Assembly (NCBI GenBank): GCA_017848795.1 | Contig: JAFIHG010000040.1 | Coordinates: 1 to 44,201 of the forward strand | Length of the DNA stretch: 44,201 nt | Reading direction: 5' to 3' | Source of the DNA: Candidatus Nanopelagicales bacterium | GTDB taxonomy: Bacteria; Actinomycetota; Actinomycetes; S36-B12; CAIYMF01 | Shown here: in pieces, positions 2,718 to 16,271 of the stretch | Layout: each line of letters begins with the position of its first letter | Numbering within the stretch: position 1 is the first letter of the stretch | Translations under genes and position numbers: made by a program | The notes under the pieces: model-generated | Database searches by the model: none | Seen by the model: only the letters and a program-made list of their open reading frames with translations | What the model was told of the DNA's origin: nothing

Positions 2718-3650
2718 ATGATCGAGCTGGTGCACTCGCCTGCCTCCGGGGTGGGCATCGCGACGTACGACGACGACACACTGCTCGACGTCTGGTTCCC
2801 CTCGCCTTCCTTGGGCCAGACGCCGCAGCCCGAACCGGATCTCGCGGCGCTCGAGCGCCACGACGAGCTGCGCGGGGTGCGTACGGCGGTGGTGAGCGTG
2901 CAGATCGCGGACCTCGCCGCGCCGCCGGCCGATGCCGCGGACGTCTGGTTGCGGCTCCATCTGCTCTCCCACCGGCTGGTGATCCCCCGATCGTTGTCCA
3001 TGGACGGCGTGTTCGCGACGCTGGCGAACGTCGCCTGGACCAGCCTCGGCCCGGTGCCCATCGACCGGCTCGATGCGGTACGCCGCCGCGCCCGGCTGGC
3101 GGGCAGCCCGCTCACGGTCCACGGGGTCGACAAGTTCCCCCGGATGGTCGACTACGTGGTCCCGTCCGGGGTGCGCATCTGCGACGGCGACCGGGTCCGG
3201 CTCGGTGCGCACCTCGCGGCCGGTACGACGGTCATGCACGAGGGGTTCGTGAACTTCAACGCCGGCACCCTCGGTTCCTCGATGGTCGAGGGACGCATCT
3301 CCGCGGGCGTGGTCGTGGGCGACGGCACCGACGTCGGCGGTAGCGCCTCGATCATGGGCACGCTGTCGGGCGGTGGCACCCATGTGGTGACCATCGGGGA
3401 ACGCTGCCTGATCGGTGCGAACGCGGGCGTCGGGATCTCGCTCGGCGACGACTGCGTGATCGAGGCCGGCACCTACATCACCGCCGGATCAAAGATCACC
3501 ATGCCGGACGGCTCGGTGCTGCGCGCGCGTGAGCTCTCGGGACAGAGCGGCCTGCAGTACTGGCGGAACTCGCTCACCGGACGGCTGGAGGCCACACCGC
3601 GCAGCGGTTCCTGGGGCGGGCTCAACACGGCGCTGCACTCGGCGAACTGA
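2718..3650 (+). CDS. dapD: 2,3,4,5-tetrahydropyridine-2,6-dicarboxylate N-succinyltransferase
   Basis: A 310-residue protein that transfers succinyl from succinyl-CoA to tetrahydrodipicolinate in the lysine/DAP pathway. The N-terminal half is the actinobacterial DapD domain ([20 protein letters not shown]). The C-terminal half is a left-handed beta-helix of hexapeptide repeats, running from the region with [20 protein letters not shown] through [20 protein letters not shown]. The conserved MVEGR stretch carries the family's catalytic Glu. It ends in a short tail (SGQSGLQYW). I chose ATG 2718 over GTG 2709 because TAGGGT lies seven bases upstream and the length matches mycobacterial DapD. Its 3' end overlaps the converging gene by 29 bp. 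Confidence 0.94.
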
Positions 3651-4884
3651 GCTCGCCGCGCCTACCGCCGCCGCCAGCAGCCTGCCGGGCCCTGCCGTAC
3701 GCGGCGACGACGGCATCGAGGCGGGCGCTCGGCGCCGGGACGGTACGCCCCCGCAGCTTGGCCACCGCGAGCTCGGGCTGGTCGCTGACCTCAACCCCAC
3801 GTAGAGCGCTGCCGGGCACGAACACGCCGTCGTGCGTGGCGGTGCGGAACGCGGCCAGCCCCCACTCGGCGACCTCCGGGAGCCGGTCGACCGCGACCTG
3901 GACGGTCGGCCGTGCCGCATCGCGGGACAGCGCCCCGGTGAGCAGCCGGCGGACCAGCGCCGCTTCGCCGCGTACGGCCGCCGAGGGCGGAGTCGTGGTC
4001 CGCAGCTCCGACAGCGTCGTGCGCAGCGTCCGCCACGCACCCGGCGCGCTCGTGGGCCATCCTGCTGCCGCCGCGAATCCGTTGAGGTCGGTCGCCACGG
4101 CGGCGAGGTCGGCCAGTGTCGTCGTCGACACCCGTGGGGTGTGCGCGAGCCGCCACGCGTACTGCCGCAGCTGGGCGAGGCGGTCGGCGAGCTCGGCCGC
4201 CGCCGGCGCGGACCGGGGCCGTGAGCGCGCCGGCCCCAGTCCGGCCAGGACGCAGGGACGGCGTGGTGCCGTCTGGCGGCAACGCTGCGCGGTACCGGCG
4301 AGCCGGGCCGGGTCGCCGACCATGCGTGCGAGCTGCGCCGCACCGATGCCCGTACGCCCTGCCTGTGCGGCGAGCACCTCGGCGCATCGCGCTGCCTCGA
4401 GGACGACGTCCGCCACCAGGCCGGCCGCGCGGAGCACCTGCTGCGGGTCCTGCAGCATCACCGCCTCCGCCGAACGCGGCGCGCCCCCGGCATCGAGGTG
4501 GGTGGCGAGCAGGTCGGCCGCGGCACGGACCGTCACCGCCGCGCTGCGGCACCGCGTGGCGACGACCGAGGGAGCGCCGATGGGATCGGCGGGTCGGTGG
4601 GTGAGCAGTGCACCGAGCGAGGCCATCGGCGCCGGTACCGGTTCCAGCTGCCTCCAGAGCCGACTCCAGAGCGCGCCGAGCCCGTCGAGCGCCTCGCTGC
4701 AGGCGACGATCGCGCCGAACGCGGCCGGTCTCGTCCAGCCACCGCTGCCACCGGCTCGCGCCGCTTCGCGAAGGTCTGTACCGGCGTCGCGGAGAAGCGA
4801 CGCGAACGTCGTGGGTGGAAGCCAGGGCGCCCCCGGCGTCTGTCGCGCGTACGGTCCTTCGGTCTCGAGCAGTGCGGCGGTCAC
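3622..4884 (-). CDS. Hypothetical alanine-rich protein at the end of the Tad operon
   Basis: A 420-residue protein of unknown function. It starts at GTG 4884 behind a strong Shine-Dalgarno (AGGAGG, 4890-4895). It is rich in Ala, Arg and Leu and predicted mainly helical, for example [20 protein letters not shown] and [18 protein letters not shown] see no signal peptide, no clear membrane segment and no catalytic motif. The tail is low-complexity ([20 protein letters not shown]). It lies 95 bp downstream of the LysM-BTAD gene on the same strand, so it may be the last gene of the pilus operon, though the gap and its own SD allow separate expression. A palindrome GAACCGGTTC (4944-4953) lies in the gap. 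It overlaps the 3' end of dapD by 29 bp. Confidence 0.7.
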
Positions 4885-4979
4885 GGCAACCTCCTGGTGG
4901 GCGTACGCCCGCGACGGGTAGTTGCCGTTCTGTGTGCCAGCCGGAACCGGTTCTGCGGTTCGGGAGCGCGCGCGGCGCC

Positions 4980-7751
4980 TCAGCGAGTGCGTGCCTCCTG
5001 CAGCAGCGCGACGGTCTCGGGCATCAGCTCGTCCTCGTCGAGCTCGAGCGACTCGAACGCGGCGGCCATCCGGGTGACGGCCCGGTCGACCTCACGGGCG
5101 TCACCGCGCCGGAGGGCCGCCCGGATCGCGTCCCGGTGCAGCTTCTCGCTGCCCGGCTCGACCAGGAGCCCGCGGGCGGCGGCACGCGCGGCACCTGCCG
5201 CATCGCCGGCGCCGAGCCGGAGCACCGCGGCGACGTGGGCGACATCGACGATGACGGCCACCATGTCCTGCGCGTCCGCCTCTGCCCACACGTACGACGT
5301 CGGGTCGATGCCCTGGAACGGGCGCCCGCGCACCACCGCGAGCGCCGCCTCCAGCCCGTCCGGAGAGGACTGCGCGAGCGCCGCGCGCGCAGCACGCACG
5401 AACTCGTACCAGTCGCAGTCGATATCAGCCAGCAGCCGGTACTCGCCTTCGTCGGCGACGAGGGGCAGGTACGGGCGGCCTTCGGGATCGCGGCCCAGCC
5501 ACTGCCGCGCCCGCGACACGAACGGGTTCCGCGTGCTGCGCCCGACCCGGCGCCCGGGCCACATGACCTCGTCGAGCTCGTGACGGCCGGCGCCCGGGTG
5601 CAGCACGAGGTACGTGACCAGCTCGGTGGCGCGTCGCACCCGTCCCGGCAGCTGGCTGTCGTCGACGCCGCTCACCTCGACCGGGCCCAGTACGCGCACC
5701 ACGGGTGACCCGGCGCGACCGGGGGCGGGGACCGACACAGCTGCCAGCACCGCGTCCAGCGCGGCGACCAGCTGGGGATCGGCGGGTTCCGGAGCTGCGC
5801 TGGGCGTCGGTGGCGCCAGCAACTCAGCGAGGTGCGCCCGGTCCGTGGAGGTCAACGCGCCCGGCACGACGCGCACGTCCGCGGGCCGCAACCGCCAGTA
5901 CGGTCCCTCGGGTTCCGGGCGCAGCGACCAGCCGTCCTCTCCTCGCGCCACGACGGCCGCGCCCGACCAAGGCTCGGGCTGCACGGCCAGCTCACGCGCG
6001 ACGACCACCTGCGGTGCCCACGTCTCGTCCGCCGCGTCCTGGGAGCGCGCCTGCGCGGTGTCGGCGAGGCCGGCCTGGCCGAGGACGCGGCGCACCTCAC
6101 GCTGATGGTCCTCGATCGCCGCTGCGGCCGCCTCCCGGTCCAACCCGACCGGCCCGCCCGACCCCACAGCCCCCGCCTGCGGCTCGGGCTCGTCGGCGAC
6201 CGCCAGCGAGATCGCCCCACGCCGCGCGCGGTCGGTGAGGTCGAGCGTCATGGCAGCCAGGATCGGTTCTGCCTGCTCGGGTTCCCCCGCGACGTGCAGG
6301 GCGCCCGCCGCTTCGAGGTTCGCCATGACCAGGTCGGGACCGTCCATGCCCACGCTCACCAGCGCCGGGCACGGATCGATCCGGTCCGGGTCCGGCGTCA
6401 GCTCCGGCACCGGCCCGTCCCAGACCCAGCTCGTCGTTCCTTCGACGCGGTACGGCGACGGTGGCGGGCCGTCCTCGGGTCCGGCGAGGAGCAGCTCGAG
6501 GCGGTCGGCCCGGGCCCGTACGAGCGCGATCCTGGGCAGTGGCCGGTCCCCGGCCCGGCACCCGTCCGCCAGCAGCGCCAGGCCGACCCGCACCCGCTCG
6601 GCGGTTGGCGTCGCCGGCACGGCACGCAGCAGCCGTTCGGTGCCCACAGCGCTCCGGCGGTGGCGCTGCCCGGTGGGGCGGGTACGTTCCGCGCGCCGGC
6701 GCTGCCGGGCCAGCTCGGCGAGGACCCCGGCGATCGTGACCGCACCGAGCCCCAGTGCCACCAGCGGCGCGGCCTCCGGGACCCGGGCGTCTTCCGCAGC
6801 GGCAAGGGTCGACGCCGTTCCCTGCGCGCTTCCCGGAGAGTGCGCAGCCTCGCTGCCCGCGGCCGCGTGCTGCGGCACCTCGCGCGGTGCGGATACCGGG
6901 TCGTACGGCGCCCTGTCGACGAGCGTCGCCGCGGGTGGCAGGGGCACCGGCTCGGGACGCTCGGCTACGGCTCGCGGTGGGTGCTGCTCACGCTTGTCGG
7001 CGCGCTGACGGTGCGCGTGGGGGTCGGCGCCGCGAGCGTCGTCCGGTAGCCGCAGCACCCAGCCCGGGTAGATCCAGTGCGGGTCGGTGAGGCGTCTGCC
7101 GTCGGGCTGGAGTACGCCGCGGTTCAGCGCGACGATCTCCTTGTAGCGCAAGCCGGATCCCAGATGCCGTTCCGCCAGGCCCCACAACGTGTCGTGCCGT
7201 TGCACGGTCACGGTCGGCCCGGTGCGGTGCTCGCGCGGCGCGACCCTGCGTGGTGCCGGCGTCCGATCGCCTGTAGAAGCAGCGGGCTCGGCATGCGGCA
7301 CTGCGGCCTGCGCCGCGACGGGAACTGTCGCGACCGCTGTCGCACGTGGTGCGCTGGGAGCGCTCGGAGCGGTGAGCAGCACGACGACCGCGGCGACCAG
7401 CGCCGCCGCGCCGCGCTGGGCGGGGGCCAGGAGCGGCAACCGCGGAGTGGGGCGGCGGCGCACGACGGCCGACACCTCGGCGACGGTCGCCGCTGCGAAG
7501 GCGGCCCACGCGGACCAGGCGACGGCGACCAGGCCGAGGCGCAGCAGGCTGCCGTCGTCCGCGCCGAGCAGGGCCGGGACCACATCGGGCCAGGAGCGCA
7601 CGCCGGCCGGCAGGGCGGGCCGGGCGACGACGGCGAGCACGAGCGGCAGCACGAGGAGCAGCACCACCAGCAGCAGGGCGGAACCGAGGCCGGCGAGGAC
7701 CTCCCCGCGCGGACGCGCTCGCCGCACCTCGACCGGTACCGCGCGGCTCAT
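4980..7751 (-). CDS. Membrane protein with LysM and SARP/BTAD-type domains (Tad locus)
   Basis: A 923-residue protein. Residues about 20-42, 70-92 and 114-128 look like membrane segments. A LysM peptidoglycan-binding domain follows at about 180-235 (TVTVQRHDTLWGLAERHLGS ... HWIYPGWVLRLP). A Pro/Ala-rich linker leads to a fourth membrane segment near 328-345 and then a basic stretch (RQRRRAERTRP). The C-terminal ~240 residues resemble a winged-helix plus bacterial transcriptional activator domain (RVLGPVEVSG, RATELVTYLVLHPG, then TPR-like helices ending in EVDRAVTRMAAAFESLELDE). Four membrane segments would put LysM outside and the BTAD part inside. The ATG overlaps the TadG-like gene by ATGA. 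Similar LysM/BTAD proteins accompany actinobacterial Tad loci, and their function is not established. Confidence 0.85.
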   Translation of the reverse strand: MSRAVPVEVRRARPRGEVLAGLGSALLLVVLLLVLPLVLAVVARPALPAGVRSWPDVVPALLGADDGSLLRLGLVAVAWSAWAAFAAATVAEVSAVVRRRPTPRLPLLAPAQRGAAALVAAVVVLLTAPSAPSAPRATAVATVPVAAQAAVPHAEPAASTGDRTPAPRRVAPREHRTGPTVTVQRHDTLWGLAERHLGSGLRYKEIVALNRGVLQPDGRRLTDPHWIYPGWVLRLPDDARGADPHAHRQRADKREQHPPRAVAERPEPVPLPPAATLVDRAPYDPVSAPREVPQHAAAGSEAAHSPGSAQGTASTLAAAEDARVPEAAPLVALGLGAVTIAGVLAELARQRRRAERTRPTGQRHRRSAVGTERLLRAVPATPTAERVRVGLALLADGCRAGDRPLPRIALVRARADRLELLLAGPEDGPPPSPYRVEGTTSWVWDGPVPELTPDPDRIDPCPALVSVGMDGPDLVMANLEAAGALHVAGEPEQAEPILAAMTLDLTDRARRGAISLAVADEPEPQAGAVGSGGPVGLDREAAAAAIEDHQREVRRVLGQAGLADTAQARSQDAADETWAPQVVVARELAVQPEPWSGAAVVARGEDGWSLRPEPEGPYWRLRPADVRVVPGALTSTDRAHLAELLAPPTPSAAPEPADPQLVAALDAVLAAVSVPAPGRAGSPVVRVLGPVEVSGVDDSQLPGRVRRATELVTYLVLHPGAGRHELDEVMWPGRRVGRSTRNPFVSRARQWLGRDPEGRPYLPLVADEGEYRLLADIDCDWYEFVRAARAALAQSSPDGLEAALAVVRGRPFQGIDPTSYVWAEADAQDMVAVIVDVAHVAAVLRLGAGDAAGAARAAARGLLVEPGSEKLHRDAIRAALRRGDAREVDRAVTRMAAAFESLELDEDELMPETVALLQEARTR

Positions 7752-8185
7752 GGGCGCTCCGTCCTGACCCCGGGCACGAGCTCGACGGTGGCCGTGCCGG
7801 TGGCGCTGAGTTGTCCGATGCCCACCAGTCCCAGGAACACCGTCCGGCTGGTGGAGCGCACCTCGATGGTGAGGCTGCGACGGTCGGGTGCGATGGCCAC
7901 CGTGCCGTCCGTTCCGGTCGCGGCGAGGTAGCGGCGGGCCGCCGCCACGGCACGCGGGACCTCGACACGCGGCCGCTCACCGGCGACGGCCGCCGCCAGG
8001 TCGATCTGCTGACCGGCGGCACGCCCCGCTTCCGCGGCGATCCGGTCCGCCCGCTGCAGCGCCCGGACCTTGCCGCCACCGTCGACGACGAGTCCAGCCA
8101 TCACGAGCAGCGCCAGGACGGCGGCGGCGAAGAACGCGGTGACCGACCCGCGGTCGGTCCCGCTCCGTGTTGCAACGGCGGTCAT
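7748..8185 (-). CDS. TadG-like / pilus-assembly minor protein
   Basis: A 145-residue protein with a short N-terminus, one hydrophobic segment and an extracellular part. It begins MTAVATRSGTDRGSVTAFFA, then AAAVLALLVMAGLVVDGGGK, the pattern of TadG/Rv3660c-neighbour proteins in actinobacterial Flp loci. The residues after GS do not contain the Glu at +5 found in TadE proteins, so it may not be processed by prepilin peptidase. ATG 8185 shares one base with the stop of the preceding tadE (TGATG), and its own stop overlaps the next start by four bases. The longer upstream frame overlaps tadE and is not used. Confidence 0.8.
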   Translation of the reverse strand: MTAVATRSGTDRGSVTAFFAAAVLALLVMAGLVVDGGGKVRALQRADRIAAEAGRAAGQQIDLAAAVAGERPRVEVPRAVAAARRYLAATGTDGTVAIAPDRRSLTIEVRSTSRTVFLGLVGIGQLSATGTATVELVPGVRTERP

Positions 8186-8619
8186 CAGCGGGCCCGGTAG
8201 GTGTCGAGGACGGACACCGCTGTCGCGTCGACCTGCCGCGAGCCCGGGAGCCCGGGGACGCCTTGGTCGGCGAGCGCGATCGCGCATCCCACCGACACGC
8301 TGACCTGGGCGTCGGCCCCGACCGGCCGGTGGAAGCCGGCCGTGTCGACGGCCACCCGCAACGAGCGGCACTGCACGCCCTGCCCGGTGAGGTTCTCCCG
8401 GACGGTACGGCTCGCTGCCTGCTCGGCCGCCGCCGCGGTGCGCGCGACGGAGGCGGCGCGGGCACCGGCCGCGGCCGCATGCTCGACGACCGCTGCCGCC
8501 GCCTCGATGCGCGCCGCCACCACCACGAGCCCGAGCACGAGCAGCAGCGCCGGTCCGAGCACCGTGAGCTCGAGCGTCACGCTTCCGTCCTCACCGGCGG
8601 TCCGGCCCTGCCGGATCAT
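8185..8619 (-). CDS. tadE: TadE family pseudopilin (second copy)
   Basis: A 144-residue protein with a class III (type IV pilin-like) leader. MIRQGRTAGEDG is followed by SVTLELTVLGPALLLVLGLV: a Gly cleavage site, Glu at mature position 5 and a hydrophobic helix, as in TadE pseudopilins. The rest is an Ala-rich helix and a small extracellular domain with two Cys (GVQCRSLRVAV and VGCAIALAD) that could form a disulfide. ATGA overlap with the upstream tadE and TGATG coupling to the next gene indicate one operon. It acts at the membrane as a minor pilin or assembly factor. Confidence 0.85.
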   Translation of the reverse strand: MIRQGRTAGEDGSVTLELTVLGPALLLVLGLVVVAARIEAAAAVVEHAAAAGARAASVARTAAAAEQAASRTVRENLTGQGVQCRSLRVAVDTAGFHRPVGADAQVSVSVGCAIALADQGVPGLPGSRQVDATAVSVLDTYRAR

Positions 8620-9017
8620 GCCGCGCCGTCGGGTACGAAGCGTTCGACAGTGGACTCCGCCGACTGCGTGACGGTCAGCCCGGCGACACCGGGCAGCACG
8701 GAGAGCGCCCGGCCACGCACCTCGACCCGGACCCGGTCGGGGCCGACACGGCTGACGGTCACCGCGGTCTGGGAGAGGCTGTCACCCGCGGAACGGGCCA
8801 AGAAGCGTTGCGCGCGTATGGTTCCATCGCGCAACTGTCCGCCGTACGAGGTCGCCGCCGAGGCGCCCTCCTGCGCCGCGGCGAGCGCCAGGTTCCGCGC
8901 GTACGCCCAGAGCGCGACCTGCACCACCGTGAACACGAGCAGCAGCAGTGCCGGGCCGAGCACCGCGATCTCGACCGTGGCCGAGCCGCGGTCGTGGGTG
9001 CGCCGGACCGGGTGCAT
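8616..9017 (-). CDS. tadE: TadE family pseudopilin (first copy)
   Basis: A 133-residue protein beginning MHPVRRTHDRG, then SATVEIAVLGPALLLLVFTV: Gly cleavage site, Glu at mature +5 and a pilin-like hydrophobic helix, all diagnostic of TadE/F pseudopilins. A helical segment (LALAAAQEGASAATSYGG) and a beta-rich tail (VTVSRVGPDRVRVEVRGRAL) follow. It lies 6 bp downstream of the Flp pilin gene and overlaps the second tadE by four bases. It probably works with Flp and the second TadE in pilus initiation or at the tip. Confidence 0.88.
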   Translation of the reverse strand: MHPVRRTHDRGSATVEIAVLGPALLLLVFTVVQVALWAYARNLALAAAQEGASAATSYGGQLRDGTIRAQRFLARSAGDSLSQTAVTVSRVGPDRVRVEVRGRALSVLPGVAGLTVTQSAESTVERFVPDGAA

Positions 9018-9023
9018 CGGTGC

Positions 9024-9218
9024 CTACTTCAGCTGCTCGGTCCGCGAGGTGACGGCCGCGGTGAGGGCGGCGACCAGCACGCCGGCGATCGCCAGCAAGC
9101 CGAGGGCGATGACGACCATCTCGAGCGTGCTCACACCGTCCTCGCGACGGCGCAGCCGGTCGAGCAGCCGCTCGGACTCGCCTCGGGCGATCACCATCAT
9201 GATCGGGATGTGGTGCAC
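9024..9218 (-). CDS. flp: Flp-type pilin
   Basis: A 64-residue prepilin. The basic leader ends LLDRLRRREDG, followed by VSTLEMVVIALGLLAIAGVL. Cleavage after Gly28 would give Glu at mature position 5 and a very short mature pilin of about 36 residues that is nearly all hydrophobic helix plus AVTSRTEQLK. This is the expected form of a Tad/Flp major pilin, at the short end of the range. GTG 9218 has GAGGAG six bases upstream. The gene lies between tadC (33 bp gap) and tadE (6 bp gap). Several Met codons inside the leader could be alternative starts. Confidence 0.87.
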   Translation of the reverse strand: MHHIPIMMVIARGESERLLDRLRRREDGVSTLEMVVIALGLLAIAGVLVAALTAAVTSRTEQLK

Positions 9219-9251
9219 GGGATCTCCTCTCGTTGCTGGAACTCTGGTGGG

Positions 9252-10121
9252 TCAACCGAAGACGATGCGCGCGAGCGCGGGATAGCCGAGCAGCAGCAGG
9301 AACGCGACGCCGAGCATGGCCACCGGGGCCACCATCTGCTCGGAGGCGGAGTTCGCCCGCGTCGCGCTCTCCGCGAGCAGCGCGCCGCGCAACGAGGCGG
9401 CACGGGAACGCAACGTTCCGTACACGCCCGCCCCGTCCTCCCCGGTCAGGCGCATGATCTGGGTGACATCGGTGAGCTCGGGCACACCGAGCCGCGCCCC
9501 GAGTCGTTCGAACGCGTGCCACGGCGCCTCGCCGGCCAGCTGGGTGCGCGTGAGCGCGTCACGCACGAGGTCGAAGAACCGCGCGTCGCCGATCGCCGCC
9601 GCCCGTTCCAGCGCCTCGCCCACCCCGGCGTCCGCCGCCCGTTCCAGCGCCACCAGCTCGAGGTAGACCCACAGCGCGTGGCGGATCTCCTCGCGCGCCG
9701 CGGCGGCACGCCGTACGACGTCCACGTCCGGGACGAGGAACAGTGCGACGCCCAGCGCGGCACCGGCGATCAGGGGCATGGCGAACGGCAGCCGGAGTCC
9801 GACGAGTGCCATGACGAGGGAAAGCAGCGGCGGGAAGAGCAGCCCGAGCAAGGCGTATCCAAGCTTGCGCAGGGTCAGCTCGGAGGCGCTCGTCCCGAGC
9901 AGTTCCAGGTCCTGGGAGCGGGCGGAGGGTACGACGAGCCGTGTCACGCGGTCGAGCAGTCCGTGCAGGCCGCTGCCCGGCAGCGGTGACTCGTGCCCGG
10001 CGGGCGGACCGTGACGCAGTCCTTCGGCGGCGACCGGGTCCGGGACCAGCGGGGTCAGCCACCACAACAGCGCCGCGAGCCCGGCGCCGATGAAGGCACC
10101 CACGAGCAGCCCGGCCGTCAT
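9252..10121 (-). CDS. tadC: TadC-type pilus platform protein (T2SS F domain)
   Basis: A 289-residue integral membrane protein. It starts MTAGLLVGAFIGAGLAALLW (first membrane helix). After a loop come two helices around LRKLGYALLGLLFPPLLSLV and LPFAMPLIAGAALGVALFLV. A GspF/T2SSF cytoplasmic domain follows (REEIRHALWVYLELVALERA ... MRLTGEDGAGVYGTLRSRAA), and a last helix is at AMLGVAFLLLLGYPALARIV. The family forms the inner-membrane platform that couples the TadA motor to pilin extrusion. The ATG overlaps the tadB stop by four bases (ATGA). The long frame extending upstream to 11,126 is antisense to the TadA and TadB reading frames and is not used. Confidence 0.9.
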   Translation of the reverse strand: MTAGLLVGAFIGAGLAALLWWLTPLVPDPVAAEGLRHGPPAGHESPLPGSGLHGLLDRVTRLVVPSARSQDLELLGTSASELTLRKLGYALLGLLFPPLLSLVMALVGLRLPFAMPLIAGAALGVALFLVPDVDVVRRAAAAREEIRHALWVYLELVALERAADAGVGEALERAAAIGDARFFDLVRDALTRTQLAGEAPWHAFERLGARLGVPELTDVTQIMRLTGEDGAGVYGTLRSRAASLRGALLAESATRANSASEQMVAPVAMLGVAFLLLLGYPALARIVFG

Positions 10122-10984
10122 CGCTGCTCCTCCGTGCGGGAACGCGCCGCCAGCAGCCGCGGGCGCGGGGCGGAGAGGGTCATCGCGTGCATCCAGCCGA
10201 GGGAGACCGCGAACAACACGGCGATCGCCAGCAGCACGAGCTGGCCCAGCGGCGTGGCGTACGGCGCCAGGTAGCCGCCGGTCAGCAGGCCGATGCCGAC
10301 CACCGCGAGGGTGATCACGGTGACCGCACGGGCCGTCGTACGCGGCCGCGCCCGGTCCGCCTCGACCCCGCGTCGCATGGCGACCTCCTCGCCGAGCGCG
10401 TCCGCGATGGCGACGAGGGCTGCCGCGAGCCCGGGCCCGCGGCGGCGCTGAGCGAGCAGCAGGGCCGCGACCGCGAGGTCGGCGGACGCGTCGTCGATGT
10501 CGGCGGCGAACGCGCGCAGTGCGTCTTCGAGCGGCCAGCTCGCCGCGACGCGGGAGGCCAGGGTGGTGACCTGGGGGCGTACCGGCTCGGGCGCGCTGCG
10601 GCTCGTCACGACGACCGCCTGACCGAGCCCGACGCCGACCACGAGGACGTCCGCCAACCGGCGCAGCCAGTCCTCGACGGCCTCGATGCGCACGATGGCG
10701 TGTGCTGCCCGGCGGCTGCCGGTGAACAGGTACGGCACCCCCCACACCACCAGCCCGGCGACGATGCCGCCCGCCGGCCACCGGGTGAGCACGCCCACCA
10801 CGAGTGCGACGAGTGCGGCCACCGCGACCCGGCTCCCGCGGTCCCGCAGCGCGAGCAGCGCACGACGCGGTCCGCCGGTCCCGGCCGCCGTGACAGGGAC
10901 CGGCCGGACGCCGAGGACGACCAGGACCAGACCCGCTGCGCCGGCGGCGCCCAGCGCCAGCGCAGCCACGGCGGCGCTCACCAT
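10118..10984 (-). CDS. tadB: TadB-type pilus platform protein (T2SS F domain)
   Basis: A 288-residue membrane protein paired with TadC. The N-terminal helix is VAALALGAAGAAGLVLVVLG. Two helices lie near AVAALVALVVGVLTRWPAGG and IVAGLVVWGVPYLF. A GspF-like cytoplasmic region follows (EAVEDWLRRLADVLVVGVGL ... LLLAQRRRGPGLAAALVAIA), and C-terminal helices lie at VTVITLAVVGIGLLTGGYLA and LLAIAVLFAVSLGWMH. The start is ATG 10,984 (7-bp overlap with tadA) or GTG 10,981, which would give a GTGA overlap. It forms the platform with TadC. Confidence 0.9.
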   Translation of the reverse strand: MVSAAVAALALGAAGAAGLVLVVLGVRPVPVTAAGTGGPRRALLALRDRGSRVAVAALVALVVGVLTRWPAGGIVAGLVVWGVPYLFTGSRRAAHAIVRIEAVEDWLRRLADVLVVGVGLGQAVVVTSRSAPEPVRPQVTTLASRVAASWPLEDALRAFAADIDDASADLAVAALLLAQRRRGPGLAAALVAIADALGEEVAMRRGVEADRARPRTTARAVTVITLAVVGIGLLTGGYLAPYATPLGQLVLLAIAVLFAVSLGWMHAMTLSAPRPRLLAARSRTEEQR

Positions 10985-12483
10985 GGGACGCTCCCGTCCT
11001 GCCGGGCGTGGCGCGCCGCCGGCCCGGACCAGGAACCGGCGGCTTCGAGGAAGGCGGGGTCGAACCCGGCGCGTACGAGGTCGGGCAGGCAGGCCGGACG
11101 GTGGCGGGGCACGGCACGACCGTCATGGCCGGGTCCGTACACCGTCGTCATCACCGGCCGCCCGAGCTCGCCGATCCCGTCGATCTCGACCACCTCCGAG
11201 ACGTACCTGCGCCGCCGCACGGAACCGGCGGGGCCGACCGGGTCGTCGGTCATGGCCAGGTGGACGACGAAGTCCACGGCCCCTGCCGCCAGCCGGTACG
11301 CGAACGTGTCGGTCATGCCGACTCCCGCCGACAGGCACAGCGTGACGAGCCGGTCGAAGGCGTGGTGGGCGGACCGCGCGTGCAGCGTGCACAGCGATCC
11401 GTCGCCGGTGCTCATCGCCTCGAGCATCGGCAGCACTTCCGGACCGCGGACCTCGCCGACGATGATGCGCCGCACGTTGAGCCGCAGCGCGTCGATCACC
11501 AGCTGCGAGAGCGTGACCTCGCCGCGACGGCGGCCCTCGGCGTCGGTCTCCGCGCTGCCTTCCCGGGCCTCCATCGCGACGAGCCGGGGGTGGCGCTCGG
11601 GCAGGTCGTGCAGGTGCAGCTCGTACTCCCGCTCGATGGTGGCGAAGCGTTCGAGGGGCGGGAACTCGTTGGCGAGCGCGCGGATCAGCGTCGTCTTGCC
11701 TGCGTTCTGCAGGCCGGTGCACACGATGTTCTTCCCGGCGCGAAGCGCGGCGCGCAGCAGTGCCTCGAGGCCGTCGTCGAGGGTTCCCAGCCGCACCAGA
11801 TCGGACAGGTCGATGTCACGGATCCGGTGACGTCGGATGACCAGCTGCGGACGCGGTGTGGTCCAGCCGATCGCGGCGAGCCGGCTGCCGTCGTCGAGCC
11901 GCAGATGGATGCTCGGGTGCGCTGTCGTGAAAGTCCTTTCACCGGAGCCCGTTCTGGCTCCGAGGTGTTGCACGAGCGCGATCAGCTCGTCGTCGGAGGA
12001 CGCGATGGCGGGGCCGCGCTCGTGGCGGCCGTCGAAGTACGAGAGCCAGACGTCGTCGCAGCCGTTCGCCTCGATGTTCTCGATGTCCGGGTCGTCCACC
12101 AGTGGCTGCAACCGGCCGAGCCCGAACAGCGCGGCCATCACGGCCTCGCCGATCTCGATCTCCTCCTCGACGCTCCACGTCGTGAGACCGGCGTGCGCCC
12201 GCGCGTACGCCCGCGTCGCGAGCACCTCCCCGAGCAGCGTGCGCGCCAGTTCCCGCCGGGCGCCGGGATCGCTCACCGGGGTCTGCTGGAGCCGCTGGGC
12301 GAGCCGGTCGGCAACGATCGCGCGCAGCTCGGTGACCAGCTCGTGGTCCAGCCCGCCGTTCGGCGGCCGGCTGGCGCCCACCGGCGTGATGTCCGCCGGC
12401 GACACCCGCGTCGTCCCCCGGCCGGCCCACTGCTCGCCGGCGGCCGGGTCGGCGTACCGGCTCCACGGCCGGGTCTCAGACAC
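10978..12483 (-). CDS. tadA: TadA/CpaF secretion ATPase
   Basis: A 501-residue hexameric VirB11/PilT-type ATPase that powers Flp pilus assembly on the cytoplasmic face. An N-terminal helical region (DHELVTELRAIVADRLAQRL) is followed by the CpaF signature LVDDPDIENIEANGCDDVWL. Walker A is GLQNAGKT (residues 257-264, Lys263). An Asp/Glu box lies at ATIEREYELHL and a Walker B-like stretch at RRIIVGEVRG (about 338-347). The His box region is MSTGDGSLCTLHA (about 357-369). The basic C-terminal tail reads PAARHARQDGSVPW. It overlaps tadZ by 8 bp and tadB by 7 bp, so it is translationally coupled. Confidence 0.95.
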   Translation of the reverse strand: MSETRPWSRYADPAAGEQWAGRGTTRVSPADITPVGASRPPNGGLDHELVTELRAIVADRLAQRLQQTPVSDPGARRELARTLLGEVLATRAYARAHAGLTTWSVEEEIEIGEAVMAALFGLGRLQPLVDDPDIENIEANGCDDVWLSYFDGRHERGPAIASSDDELIALVQHLGARTGSGERTFTTAHPSIHLRLDDGSRLAAIGWTTPRPQLVIRRHRIRDIDLSDLVRLGTLDDGLEALLRAALRAGKNIVCTGLQNAGKTTLIRALANEFPPLERFATIEREYELHLHDLPERHPRLVAMEAREGSAETDAEGRRRGEVTLSQLVIDALRLNVRRIIVGEVRGPEVLPMLEAMSTGDGSLCTLHARSAHHAFDRLVTLCLSAGVGMTDTFAYRLAAGAVDFVVHLAMTDDPVGPAGSVRRRRYVSEVVEIDGIGELGRPVMTTVYGPGHDGRAVPRHRPACLPDLVRAGFDPAFLEAAGSWSGPAARHARQDGSVPW

Positions 12484-13225
12484 TGCTCGACTCCTTCGCC
12501 AGGGAGCTCAAGCGGGCCGCCGCGACGTGCGCGGCGCGGGCCAGCGGCGAGCGGCTCGGCACGGTGTCGGCGGACCGTGCACCCGCCAACCGCCGTACGC
12601 CGCGCACGTCCATGGGCAGCGCGGCGACGACCTCCACGCCCAGTGCCTTGCTGACCTCGCCCGCACCGTACGGCGCGCGCTCACCCACGAGCAGCGCGGC
12701 GCGGCGCTGCGCGGGCGCCTGCGGCAGCAGGGACCGCACCGCCTGCGTGAGGCTGACGGACTCGAACGTGGAGCGCAGCACCAGCACGACGACGTCCGCG
12801 GCGTCCCGTACCGGGGTCGCTTCGTGCCGGCTGCCCCACCGCCCGAGATCCACGAGCACGTCGAGCTCGCGTTCCTCGCAGGTCCGTTCGATCGCCTCGA
12901 CGAACGCCGGCCAGTGCTCCCCGACGCTGGCCGCACCGGTCGCGTCCGGCAGCCCGGGCACCAGCCAGCGGGTGCCGTCGCCGTCGAGCGCGTACATCTG
13001 GTCCTCGAGCGACGAGCGACCCGCGGCCGCGACCCAGCCGAGCAGGCCGCGGCCGTCGCCGAGTCCGTACCGCTGGTACTCGCTGACCGGACCCGCCCCC
13101 GAGACGTCGAGGTCCAGCAGCAGCACCTGGCGCCCGGTGGCGACCGGCCAGGCCACCATCAGCGCGGTCGCCCACGTCGACACTCCCGGACGGCCCTTGG
13201 CGGCGAGCAGCGCGAAGACCGTCAT
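12476..13225 (-). CDS. tadZ: TadZ/CpaE-like ParA-superfamily ATPase with degenerate P-loop
   Basis: A 249-residue protein beginning MTVFALLAAKGRPGVSTWAT. The deviant Walker A of ParA/MinD proteins (KGGxGKS/T) is recognisable, but the second Lys is replaced by Val (K10-G-R-P-G-V-S-T). The switch region VLLLDLDVSGAG and the later DVLVDLGRWG and ADVVVLVLRSTFESV strands fit the SIMIBI fold. TadZ/CpaE proteins localise the Tad machine at the cell pole, and some have atypical nucleotide sites. GTGA-type coupling upstream and an 8-bp overlap with tadA place it in the operon. Confidence 0.85.
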   Translation of the reverse strand: MTVFALLAAKGRPGVSTWATALMVAWPVATGRQVLLLDLDVSGAGPVSEYQRYGLGDGRGLLGWVAAAGRSSLEDQMYALDGDGTRWLVPGLPDATGAASVGEHWPAFVEAIERTCEERELDVLVDLGRWGSRHEATPVRDAADVVVLVLRSTFESVSLTQAVRSLLPQAPAQRRAALLVGERAPYGAGEVSKALGVEVVAALPMDVRGVRRLAGARSADTVPSRSPLARAAHVAAARLSSLAKESSSV

Positions 13226-13911
13226 GAGGCGCCTCGTGCCTCGAGCACGAGCGCCACCCGGCCGGTCGCCGACCAGGCCGCGAGCACGGGACCTTGCGCG
13301 GCGTCGACCGCGACATCGATCACGTTGACGCCGTCGAGGTCGGTGGGCCCGACCCGCACCACCGTGGCGGTGATCGTCGACGGGGTGCCGGGCGGCGGAT
13401 CGGCGTCCTGCGGTGGGGTGCTGACGACGCGGACCACGTCGCCGGCCGCGAGCTCGACCGCGGGCATCCGGCTGGCCCGCAACGCCACCCCGACGAGCAC
13501 CTGACCCGAGAGCGGCGGGGCGACCGGCGCGACCGCCTCCGGCGCCAGCAGCGTGCCCGCCAGCAACGGAACCGTCGCGGTCTGGCCGAGCAGCTCGGAG
13601 ATCCGGTCGGCGGGCACCGTCGGGACGGCCGGATCGACCGACACCTCCGCCGTCGTGAGATCGGCACTGGAGAGGACCGCGCCGTACGGCACGGGGCGCG
13701 CGACCGCGACGACGGCGACGCGGTCCCCGGCGCTGCCGACCAGCCAGGCGGTTCCGAGCGCGCCGGTGGCGACCAGCGCGACGCCGAGCGCGACGAGACC
13801 GGGACGGCGCCGGGTGCGCACCTGCGGCGCCTGCGGCGCGACCGGCATCGGCCGTCCGGTGCGGCGGTTTCGGCCGTCCGCGGTTCCCGGCCCCGGCGCG
13901 AGAGCCGTCAC
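13222..13911 (-). CDS. SAF-domain protein, CpaB/RcpC-like
   Basis: A 229-residue protein with a basic N-terminus (QVRTRRRPG), one membrane helix (LVALGVALVATGALGTAWLV) and an extracellular SAF domain (VAVARPVPYGAVLSSADLTT ... LLAGTLLAPEAVAP). A second beta domain follows (VELAAGDVVRVVSTPP). CpaB/RcpC proteins help assemble Flp pili outside the membrane. GTG 13,911 overlaps a short upstream ORF by GTGA. ATG 13,848 (MPVAPQAP) is an alternative start nearer the helix. It is followed by tadZ with a 4-bp overlap. Confidence 0.85.
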   Translation of the reverse strand: MTALAPGPGTADGRNRRTGRPMPVAPQAPQVRTRRRPGLVALGVALVATGALGTAWLVGSAGDRVAVVAVARPVPYGAVLSSADLTTAEVSVDPAVPTVPADRISELLGQTATVPLLAGTLLAPEAVAPVAPPLSGQVLVGVALRASRMPAVELAAGDVVRVVSTPPQDADPPPGTPSTITATVVRVGPTDLDGVNVIDVAVDAAQGPVLAAWSATGRVALVLEARGAS

Positions 13912-13964
13912 GGCCGGGTCCCCGACCGTACCGTCCCGGCCCGGCGGCCGATCACGAGCCTCAT
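13908..13964 (-). CDS. Possible 18-codon leader ORF coupled to the CpaB-like gene
   Basis: ATG 13,964 starts MRLVIGRRAGTVRSGTRP and stops at TGA 13,908, overlapping the downstream GTG by four bases (GTGA). A good Shine-Dalgarno (GGGGTGAGG) lies about four bases before the ATG, while the downstream GTG has none of its own. This is the arrangement of a short ORF that brings ribosomes to the next gene. The peptide is basic and matches nothing I recognise. It could also be chance, with the true start of the SAF protein elsewhere. Between 13,965 and 14,172 I see no other gene. Confidence 0.35.
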   Translation of the reverse strand: MRLVIGRRAGTVRSGTRP

Positions 13965-14172
13965 GGCCTCACCCCCTGGCGCGCTGCTGAAGGCACCGGC
14001 CGTGGCTGGGGGTCGACGCCCGCCTGCAGGGCACCCTGTGTAGCGCGCGGAGCGCGTGGCTGTGGTCCGTTCGGCGGAATTGTCGTTACCGCACCGGGTA
14101 TCCCGCGCGTCGCGAACCGCCCCGAACCGGGACATCCGTCGCTTCCCGTCCCACCAGCCACAACCGTCGCTC

Positions 14173-14955
14173 TCATGACGCGCGCCGGGCAGGTGCGACG
14201 CAGCAGGTACGGCGGGTCGTCGCATAAACCACGGCCCGCACCTCGGGTTCGGCAAGGATCTCGGTGCCGTTGCGCGCGACCCGCTCGATCAGGCCCGGCC
14301 AGTCGGGTCGGCCGACCAGCAACGCCGCGACGCGCCGGGCGTCGCCGACCGGCACCCCGCAGCGCTCCGCGACCGTCCGCCACGGCCGACGGCGCCCCTC
14401 CGCCCGCGCCGCTGCCCACTCGACGAGTGCGAGGACGTCCTCGTGCTCCCAGCCGGCGGCGGCGAGCAGCTCGGTCACCGCGGCGAGGACCGGCGCGCCG
14501 GTCGCCGACTCTCGGGGAGCGGGCAGCCCGTACCCCCGCTCGCTTATCGCCTCGAGGCTCACGGGGGGTGCGACACCGCGGTCCCGCAGCCGCCACGCGG
14601 TACGTACCGTCGTGCCGTACCGGTGCGCGAGCGCCTCGCCGAGCACCGCGCGGCGGACCGCGACCGCCACCACGCCCCACGGTGACCCGGTCCGGCGGGT
14701 CCGTCCGCTCGCCAGCAGCTCCCAGGCGGCCGCCCATCCGGTGGCGATCGCCTGGTCGGCGGCCGCGCCGCGCAGCCCGGTGCGCCGGACTTGCGGGATC
14801 ACGACCTGGTCGTGGGCGTACCGCAGGACCGCACGCCCGGCCGGCCCGTCCCAGCCCTCGTCCGCGATCCGCACCAGCGCCCGGCGCAACCCGGCTGCGG
14901 ACGCCGGGCCGGTCGTGGCCTCGGTGGGATCGGTGGGGTCGTACGACGGTGTCAT
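14173..14955 (-). CDS. Putative sigma-factor-like/HTH protein heading the Tad locus
   Basis: A 260-residue protein not assigned to a named family with certainty. The ATG has an excellent Shine-Dalgarno (GAGGAGGT). The segment AAADQAIATGWAAAWELLAS, then WGVVAVAVRRAVLGEALAHR, resembles sigma-70 region 2. Near residue 205, WRTVAERCGVPVGDARRVAA looks like a region-4 helix-turn-helix. The middle (PVLAAVTELLAAAGWEHEDV) is helical. No membrane segment or signal peptide is seen. It lies just upstream of the pilus genes on the same strand, with a 209-bp gap before the short leader ORF, so a role in pilus gene control is plausible. The sigma reading is my inference. Confidence 0.6.
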   Translation of the reverse strand: MTPSYDPTDPTEATTGPASAAGLRRALVRIADEGWDGPAGRAVLRYAHDQVVIPQVRRTGLRGAAADQAIATGWAAAWELLASGRTRRTGSPWGVVAVAVRRAVLGEALAHRYGTTVRTAWRLRDRGVAPPVSLEAISERGYGLPAPRESATGAPVLAAVTELLAAAGWEHEDVLALVEWAAARAEGRRRPWRTVAERCGVPVGDARRVAALLVGRPDWPGLIERVARNGTEILAEPEVRAVVYATTRRTCCVAPARRAS

Positions 14956-15036
14956 GGTCGACCTCCTCGCAAGGGTCCCCGAGCCGGCCCCGGCGTACCC
15001 GTTCGCGTCGACCCTGACGAGGGGTGGTTGCCATGC

Positions 15037-15082
15037 TGCTTGCCACGCTGCACGTCACGCGGGGCCGGCGCCGTGGCAAGCA
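15037..15082. repeat. 11-bp perfect inverted repeat in the regulator/TetR intergenic region
   Basis: TGCTTGCCACG (15,037-15,047) and CGTGGCAAGCA (15,072-15,082) are exact complements around a GC-rich 24-nt centre. They lie between the divergent regulator (start 14,955) and TetR (start 15,296) genes. The site could be an operator or an mRNA hairpin in the 5' region of the pilus regulator. The rest of 14,956-15,295 holds a possible -10 TACGAT at 15,219-15,224 for TetR and no convincing gene. Confidence 0.5.
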
Positions 15083-15295
15083 CACGCGCCGCTCGCACCG
15101 CGGCTATGGACAGCGCGCGGGGCGATCGGTCATTGTTCAGCGACAACACCGTCGCGCGGTGCCGCGCGCCCTGCTCCGCCGGTTGGAGCAGGCGTCGGAC
15201 GGCGGTAAGGCGGCGCAATACGATCAGTCGGAACGGACCACCCGCATGATGTCCGCCGGGCGCGCCCGTACGGGTCCAAGGAGCGAGGCCAGCCG

Positions 15296-15904
15296 ATGAG
15301 CGTCGACACACCAGCCGGGAACCAGCCGCGTGCCCGCCTGCGCGACTCCGAGCGCAGCAAGCGGGCACTGCTGAAAGCGGGAACGGAGCTGTTCGCGGAG
15401 AAGGGCTACAGCAGGGCGCGGCTGCGTGACATCGCCGAGCGGGCCGGGCTCGACGCGGCGCTGGTCATCCGCTACTTCGGGAGCAAGGAAGGCCTCTACC
15501 GGGCGACCCTCGACCAGGACGACGTGGCCAACCTGCCGCTCGGTGCCCCGCTCGGGCCCGGTTCGGTGGAGCAGCTCGTCGCGCAGCTCGTTGCGCGCGC
15601 GATGAACCGGTGGGAGTCGGCGGGGATCGGCCCGCTCGCGCTGTCGTTGAGCCGTCCGGACGCCGGTGAGGAGACCCGGATCGAGGTGCGCAAGCGCGTC
15701 GACTCGGTCGTCGAGCCGCTGGCGGCCGCCGCCTCCCAGGCGGGCGTGGAGAACGCGCGCCTGCGGGCGGAACTCGCGGTCGCGGCACTCGTCGGTGCGG
15801 GCACGATCCGCTCGCTGGCGAGCCTGGACGCCCTCACCGAGGCGCAGCGCTCCGAGGTCGAGACGCTGCTGCGTGTCACGATGACCGCCGCCCTCACCGG
15901 GTGA
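15296..15904 (+). CDS. TetR/AcrR family transcriptional regulator
   Basis: A 202-residue repressor-type protein. The N-terminal helix-turn-helix at about residues 20-70 is typical: RSKRALLKAGTELFAEKGYS, then LRDIAERAGLDAALVIRYFG and SKEGLY. The C-terminal ligand/dimer domain is helical and includes LVAQLVARAMNRWESAGIGP. The ATG is preceded by GAGCGAGG about 5 bases upstream. Its target cannot be read from the sequence. The nearest divergent gene is the putative pilus regulator 340 bp away, with an inverted repeat between them, and TetR proteins often control a divergent neighbour. Downstream it converges on the kinase remnant, whose reading frame ends inside this gene on the other strand. Confidence 0.92.
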   Translation: MSVDTPAGNQPRARLRDSERSKRALLKAGTELFAEKGYSRARLRDIAERAGLDAALVIRYFGSKEGLYRATLDQDDVANLPLGAPLGPGSVEQLVAQLVARAMNRWESAGIGPLALSLSRPDAGEETRIEVRKRVDSVVEPLAAAASQAGVENARLRAELAVAALVGAGTIRSLASLDALTEAQRSEVETLLRVTMTAALTG

Positions 15905-16271
15905 GGGCGTTCCCTGCCGCCGAGCCTCCGCTCATGCTCCTGCACGTCGGAGATCACGAGGTACACGAACTCGATACGTGCACCTGTGCGTGAGGCCGCA
16001 GTACGCCAGGTCTGCCGAGCTGGTTCGCTGGCGTTGACCGCATCGACGACGACATCGTGGCCGAGTCGCAGATTCTGCTCCGCCATCGCACGCGCCGCCG
16101 CGTACGCAGCGATGCCGACCTGCCGCCCTGACGGCAGCCCGCAGGCGAGGATCGACTCCTCGACCGCGTCGACGGACAGGTGGGCCGATCTCGTGCGCGA
16201 AGCGACGATCTCGGCGATGCTCGTCTTCCCGAACCGGGCAGGCCGGAGATGACGACGAGGCGTGCGGTCAC
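15905..16271 (-). pseudogene. P-loop kinase (AAA family ATPase-like), frameshifted and 3'-truncated
   Basis: Starting at GTG 16,271 (GTGA overlap with the higA stop) the frame reads MTARLVVISGLPGSGRR. The expected Walker A GLPGSGKTS is broken: the DNA has GGTTCGGGAAG where one more C would give G-S-G-K-T. After a one-base shift near 16,230 the other frame continues convincingly: GKTSIAEIVASRTRSAHLSV, then VEESILACGLPSGRQVGIAA, HDVVVDAVNASEPARQTWRT and IEFVYLVISDVQEHERRLGG. That frame then loses similarity after RERPHP and runs antisense into the TetR gene, so the usual C-terminal part is missing. This is a decayed small-molecule or zeta-like kinase, or, for the frameshift only, a sequencing error. 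Confidence 0.72.

Follow-up and report, generated by a model that had tools for sequence, protein, structure and literature searches.

What does a transcription-activator-like domain do at the inner end of a membrane protein that carries a peptidoglycan-binding LysM domain on its outer side? The question is raised by a 44,201-nucleotide stretch of DNA from Candidatus Nanopelagicales bacterium (the window), which contains at 4980-7751 an open reading frame of 923 residues with an ATG start, referred to here as the LysM-BTAD protein. All window features given below are on the minus strand. The ATG overlaps the stop of a tadG-like gene by 4 nucleotides (ATGA), and the reading we favour, with middling confidence, is that it serves one actinobacterial clade of Tad pilus systems as a dedicated component, a wall-anchored membrane platform with a layout like that of FimV/HubP. 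Such a machine part is suggested by the linkage to the pilus operon, by the tadG overlap and by the way the DNA-reading helix drifts within the family.

The initial annotation had placed the gene in a pilus operon, and this was borne out by the upstream genes, which matched the families SAF, T2SSE, T2SSF (twice), TadE and Tad. The distribution of the protein was followed in three samples, namely the genomes of 60 relatives, a scan of named genomes, and 396 genomes drawn across the phylum. Among the 60 related genomes, 10 contained the protein, the own genome included. A TadA of the window clade (at least 279 bits, with the next best genome at 155.6) was found in 8 of the 60, and all 8 have the LysM-BTAD protein, although the copy in G053 was seen in part only, near a contig end. 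The probability of this co-occurrence by chance was 1.8e-8, or 1.1e-7 excluding the own genome, with kinship ignored. Genomes G002 and G008 contained two copies each of the window-clade TadA and of the LysM-BTAD protein, and G001 and G006, both incomplete (72% and 78%), contained the protein without a TadA of this clade. The protein was not found with the own genome's two further pilus-type ATPases, which lie on other contigs.

The scan of named genomes gave 20 loci, including Nanopelagicales, Sporichthya, Actinotalea, Cellulomonas, Micrococcus, Actinopolymorpha and Streptomyces. Tad genes were upstream in all 19 loci having any upstream DNA; L025 starts inside the LysM-BTAD gene, and L042 has 3.5 kb between the Tad genes and the LysM-BTAD gene. 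The 4-nucleotide overlap with the tadG stop was present in the window and in 13 of the 19 named loci, and in 4 more the gene began 2-7 nucleotides after that stop. The L025 record, titled 'Acidobacteria bacterium', contains the closest relative of the window protein and appears to be identical to L002, from a genome assigned to the window's genus; the title may be wrong.

The phylum draw showed a match to the middle domain of the protein in 36 of the 396 genomes. A total of 31 loci were read. By domain content, a family protein is encoded in 28 of them, which come from 26 genomes; five weak genomes among the 36, besides the own genome, were not read. The same architecture was thus confirmed in 27 of the 396 genomes, the window included. 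The view that a membrane SARP-like protein with a wall sensor is unusual did not hold within the phylum, where it is common (36 genomes matched, 26 besides the window confirmed). Among the 31 loci read, 26 contain the gene with enough upstream DNA, and 24 of them have Tad genes, the exceptions being L088 and L107. The other five comprise two loci at the ends of contigs (L105 and L106), a fragment (L109), one in which the gene was not refound (L110) and an EccC (L111). At L088 an intact frame of 1370 residues (11896-16005) has tadG alone beside it, in a genome without a TadA of the window clade. The locus lies on a contig of 9.5 Mb, 0.27 Mb away from its end, and looks like a decayed operon.

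The protein is also carried on plasmids, with 195 of 72,556 plasmid records matching at E <= 1e-5, linear plasmids among them. Among the 40 plasmid matches listed, 37 carry a feature named LysM, and in three of four annotated plasmids (Curtobacterium, Kineococcus and Arthrobacter) the gene lies between the tadG region and the prepilin peptidase gene. In Streptomyces alboflavus pMDJK44.1 (L049:11287-15050) the protein is divided between two genes, one for a membrane protein with LysM and one for BTAD, that overlap by 4 nucleotides; this is either a natural fission or a frameshift. The pairing of LysM with BTAD is already in print as a table entry: Table 2 of the Cutibacterium acnes study gives Pfam 'LysM, BTAD' for PAGK_2369 of plasmid pIMPLE-HL096PA1 (PMC3666418). 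That gene occupies the same place in its Tad locus as the window gene, there after three TadE genes; it is labelled TadB in the table, is not discussed further in the accessible part of the paper, and its homology to the window protein is read from the table (PMC3666418). Pili made by the C. acnes plasmid locus are supported by a later paper, the available sections of which leave the LysM-BTAD protein unmentioned (PMC5696575). The tad mutants of Micrococcus luteus, as far as the accessible text of two papers describes them, include no LysM or BTAD gene (PMC4322843, PMC8467076), and those mutants therefore do not test the LysM-BTAD protein.

Hydropathy and charge supported the four membrane segments that had been predicted, three of them N-terminal. 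These were TM1 at 7617-7691 (residues 21-45, hydropathy span about 14-52), TM2 at 7473-7550 (residues 68-93) and TM3 at 7362-7427 (residues 109-130, span about 105-135), and TM4 was located at 6717-6779 (residues 325-345, span about 324-349), with a strongly basic stretch after it. A fifth hydropathy segment (residues 829-849) lies inside the folded BTAD. The LysM domain at 7044-7208 (residues 182-236) was above the Pfam cut-off with E = 1.7e-6. Over 27 aligned members, lysine plus arginine per 100 residues came to 21.6 in the N-terminus, 15.9 in the TM2-TM3 loop and 27.9 in the stretch after TM4, and to 5.8, 4.7 and 6.0 in the three linkers assigned to the outside. By the positive-inside rule, this distribution puts the N-terminus inside, the LysM domain outside and the C-terminus inside, so that LysM and the winged helix with BTAD are on opposite sides of the membrane, as the initial annotation had proposed. 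L025, L028 and L029 were kept out of the alignments as apparently the same records as L002, L003 and L012 (judged on lengths and BLAST values, with the sequences not compared), and L009, L016 and L023 as cut or too divergent. A frameshift artefact as the origin of the 4980-7751 architecture was dropped, the reading frame being conserved across relatives. A phage origin of the protein was also dropped. A search of a viral contig collection with the protein gave no match, and four phage records that do match it have only the LysM part in common.

Domain identities and topology had been assigned correctly in the initial annotation, which overlooked a degenerate motor domain between TM4 and the winged helix. 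This degenerate FtsK/EccC-type domain without a Walker A motif was placed at 5811-6635 (residues about 373-647) by fold searches and a motif scan. A structure model of residues 355-923, built from 27 members, had a mean predicted local distance difference test score (pLDDT) of 87.8 and a predicted template modelling score (pTM) of 0.58, so the individual domains can be trusted but not the way they are placed relative to one another. Residues about 367-648 of the model matched FtsK (6t8b_C, Z 12.8 over 206 residues), TcpA (Z 11.3), EccCb1-D2 (Z 11.1) and the DUF domain of EccC5 (Z 10.0). A profile of the middle domain matched EccC5 in the PDB at E = 0.026 and reached a true EccC, the L111 frame named ESX EccC by NCBIfam, at E = 2e-5. 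Pfam showed nothing convincing on this domain; the likeness to FtsK/EccC came from the fold search. The Walker A motif GxxxxGK[ST] was found in L111 alone, the true EccC, among 56 middle-domain stretches, and L101 has a look-alike with arginine replacing the lysine. The fold is common to the ESX EccC, FtsK and TcpA motors, but Walker A is gone from the LysM-BTAD family, so pumping by the middle domain is not expected and the protein is no motor.

The C-terminal part consists of an OmpR/SARP-type winged helix at 5415-5708 (residues about 682-779), with a predicted recognition helix at 5496-5540 (residues 738-752, model helix 384-398), and the TPR-like helices of BTAD at 4983-5414 (residues 780-923). 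The best fold matches of residues about 682-923 were EmbR (2fez, Z 15.4 over 229 residues) and AfsR (8k60_I, Z 15.2 over 226), and Foldseek gave a SARP-type match to this part at E = 1e-6. BTAD was borderline by Pfam, which sets its cut-off at 22.1 bits: in the own-genome search it scored 21.6 bits alone and 22.1 together with its frame neighbours; hmmscan did not list it in the window protein at E <= 1, and it was recognised in 15 of 27 members at E <= 0.1. The fold supports the assignment. Searched against PDB sequences, the SARP-like profile found TPR proteins (designed TPR proteins matched the BTAD region at E = 8.7e-12) and, at E = 0.13, weakly the DNA-binding domain of CadC; AfsR was not reached by this search. 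The winged helix and BTAD fold is common to the SARP regulators AfsR and EmbR, from which the LysM-BTAD protein differs in being membrane-bound and encoded in a pilus operon, with its SARP-like part at the C-terminus and weak sequence likeness.

In the platform reading, the LysM domain would grip peptidoglycan on the outside and fix the pilus machine in the thick wall, and this anchoring would replace the outer-membrane parts on which diderm Tad systems rely. On the cytoplasmic side, docking surfaces would be provided by the dead motor domain together with the TPR-like BTAD; the likeliest partner is the ParA/MinD-like TadZ or else the TadA ATPase, and docking would let pilus assembly happen at the anchored site. 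A precedent is available in FimV, whose LysM domain, according to excerpts of the published work, is needed to localise the type IVa pilus machine (PMC5285504), and in HubP, which is described in part of another paper as binding ParA1 and working through FlhG (PMC8789113). From what these sources contain, FimV/HubP proteins, which are landmarks of the cell pole, have LysM outside, TPR-like repeats inside, and ties to type IV pili and ParA-type ATPases, which is the layout seen here (PMC5285504, PMC8789113, PMC12918733). Unlike the LysM-BTAD protein with its four segments, FimV/HubP proteins pass the membrane once, and they have neither the dead FtsK/EccC domain nor the winged helix. The FimV family (C-terminal FimV domain) was not listed for the window protein in Pfam or NCBIfam at E <= 1.

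A membrane-tethered one-component activator in the manner of CadC/ToxR, with a SARP head, is the main rival, and it is possible though clearly less probable. LysM and the membrane part would then sense the state of the wall or of assembly, and the winged helix would activate the tad promoter, possibly with a sigma-like protein. The fold matches to AfsR and EmbR and the weak CadC match point in this direction, and so does the window's recognition helix, which is predicted to be intact with a net charge of +5. The check by structure prediction on residues 680-923, suggested in the initial annotation, thus gave a DNA-contact helix in the model of the window protein. In AfsR, as far as its structure is described in the accessible part of the paper, R92 and T88 read bases, and the phosphate contacts are made by R87, S91, R94 and K95 (PMC10936776). 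When these positions were placed on the window protein through a SARP consensus, without the AfsR sequence itself, S746, R747 and R749 corresponded to S91, R92 and R94, and the K95 position was a glutamine. Among the 27 alignment members, a set near the window, 25 have a basic residue at the R92 position and 26 have one at the R94 position, with 17 of the 27 having been found with patterns from the SARP-like domain itself.

The picture was different among the 27 members of the phylum draw, which were chosen by the middle domain: the base-reading R92 position was basic in 13 and acidic in 8, while the R94 position was basic in 25 and the recognition helix net positive in 20. L098 was kept out of these helix counts, since its match to the middle-domain profile in the genome draw did not recur in the hidden Markov model search; its other domains are present. 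Three members, L102 (12519-15656), L103 (1877-5077) and L043 (9953-13648), have lost both basic residues of the helix and kept their Tad genes, from SAF to tadG in L043 and L102 and from tadC to tadG on the contig of L103, which tells against an activator. The helices of three ordinary SARPs of the own genome had charges of +1 to +2, so charge alone does not separate the family from SARPs. The residues E76/E77 with which AfsR contacts sigma are glycine and arginine in the window protein in our alignment, and location in the membrane would limit access to the promoter. SARPs recruit RNA polymerase from direct repeats located at -35; no such 11-bp repeats were found ahead of the SAF gene or the sigma-like gene, whether in the window or in six relatives, and no sigma-70-type promoter within 3300-15600, both being weak tests. 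In CadC and ToxR a sensor lies outside and a winged helix of broadly this type is tethered to the membrane; their DNA-binding domain is N-terminal and followed by a single pass, but here it is C-terminal after four passes and comes with a second large domain. The window helix appears fit for DNA, as judged from the model and the sequence, whereas the family overall keeps no single reading head. The activator was kept as the main rival in view of the intact window helix and of the conservation of the SARP-like part, the highest in the protein. As to the earlier proposal that the protein senses the wall or pilus state and acts on DNA or a partner, neither of the outcomes named as refuting it was seen, since the two domains lie on opposite sides and the window protein does have a DNA-contact helix. 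A core role as a membrane SARP with a wall sensor is weakened by the phylum draw, where just 13 of 27 members have a basic residue at the R92 position and 8 an acidic one, by the loss of the helix arginines in L102, L103 and L043, and by the lack of LysM in 2 of 27 members.

An operon-borne checkpoint, with a sigma-like gene heading the operon and the LysM-BTAD gene closing it, is unlikely. SARPs contact sigma region 4, so the SARP-like tail could hold or hand over a sigma-like protein depending on the seating of the pilus in the wall, which could tie gene expression to assembly, with the dead EccC/FtsK domain as a lever between membrane and tail. Gene expression is tied to assembly in flagella by FlgM and sigma-28. 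A candidate partner is the 260-residue protein encoded at the operon head (14173-14955), which was called sigma-factor-like from its predicted structure and fold comparison. The gene had no Pfam or NCBIfam match and nothing at E <= 1 in a PDB sequence search; its model (pLDDT 73.6) found mostly sigma factors in Foldseek with weak E values (0.085 and up). A second fold comparison listed 50 matches, all sigma or sigma-like chains, mostly of region 2 (Z 8.6-10.6), a range that helical folds reach more easily, so that the likeness is support and not proof. Relatives of the gene were found at the same operon place in L027 and L029-L033 and none in L034-L044. In the accessible part of the C. acnes (P. 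acnes) paper, the region upstream of the Tad locus is likewise described as having a sigma factor, along with an anti-sigma factor (PMC3666418). With a sigma-factor-like gene heading the operon, there is room for the LysM-BTAD protein to have a regulatory role.

Quite unlikely is a reading of the winged helix as a putative non-specific DNA binder that tethers the chromosome, its own plasmid or incoming DNA to the pilus site. By fold, the middle domain is related to pumps for DNA or protein (FtsK, TcpA and EccC), the protein occurs on many plasmids, and the phosphate-contacting arginine is nearly invariant while the base-reading position drifts. The missing Walker A speaks against pumping, however, and a conserved arginine is also typical of OmpR-type folds. 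That the SARP-like part is a functionless vestige is highly improbable, for the helix is degenerate in a few members but this part occurs in 28 of 28 phylum-draw members and is the most conserved of the protein, with L688, G689, W731, R749, D780 and W822 among its least variable positions.

Several observations weigh against the wall-anchored platform. A pure scaffold would not need a DNA-reading helix as basic and as strongly conserved as the one suggested by the sequences near the window, and the SARP-like part has a mean column identity of 48% compared with 31% for the middle domain. LysM was present in 25 of the 27 phylum-draw members with an N-terminus; L094 (1721-4327) and L097 (1635-4130) are without it, with none listed by Pfam, and both retain the SARP-like tail and the dead motor domain as well as membrane segments. 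At L107 the 12 kb upstream of the gene contain no Tad genes, and its genome has no close TadA. The contacts with TadZ, TadA and peptidoglycan are ones that we infer. Since the DNA-touching helix appears intact in the window's lineage, a second, regulatory job is possible there.

The LysM-BTAD protein was filed as neither a SARP proper, nor a FimV/HubP protein, nor a motor, but as a Tad component assembled from their parts. In a literature search, with subscription papers mostly outside it, no functional study of the protein came up, its EccC/FtsK-like middle domain was nowhere mentioned, and there was no description of LysM combined with a dead EccC/FtsK domain and a SARP-like tail. Pipelines name the protein a LysM protein or a transcriptional activator, so the link to pili is easily missed. 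Its probable role is to hold the pilus machine to the wall, and it may inform the cell about the machine as well. It is a conserved, operon-locked candidate for the part by which monoderms, having no outer-membrane channel, secure a Tad pilus in their thick wall.

The remaining genes of the operon, from tadG upwards, were as follows. The tadG-like gene at 7748-8185 matched Pfam Tad at E = 5e-6, tadE2 at 8185-8619 matched Pfam TadE at E = 4e-4, just under the cut-off, and tadE1 at 8616-9017 did so at E = 1e-10. A flp-like prepilin of 64 residues at 9024-9218 was recognised by its own sequence and position, with relatives at the same place. The genes tadC (9252-10121) and tadB (10118-10984) matched T2SSF at E = 3e-8 and E = 3e-10, respectively, and the tadA ATPase gene (10978-12483) matched T2SSE at E = 6.5e-22. 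The tadZ-like gene of ParA/MinD type at 12476-13225 was assigned on conserved position and a sub-threshold ParA match, and the RcpC/CpaB-like SAF protein gene at 13222-13911 on a SAF match at E = 6.6e-9. The TadZ-like protein reads KGRPGVST at the position of the MinD-type motif, which is KGGxGK[ST], so its ATPase site may be atypical. Downstream of the LysM-BTAD gene, at 3622-4884, a gene for 420 residues fell into no family in the family search; a relative of it was found in L025 only, where it also adjoins the LysM-BTAD gene.

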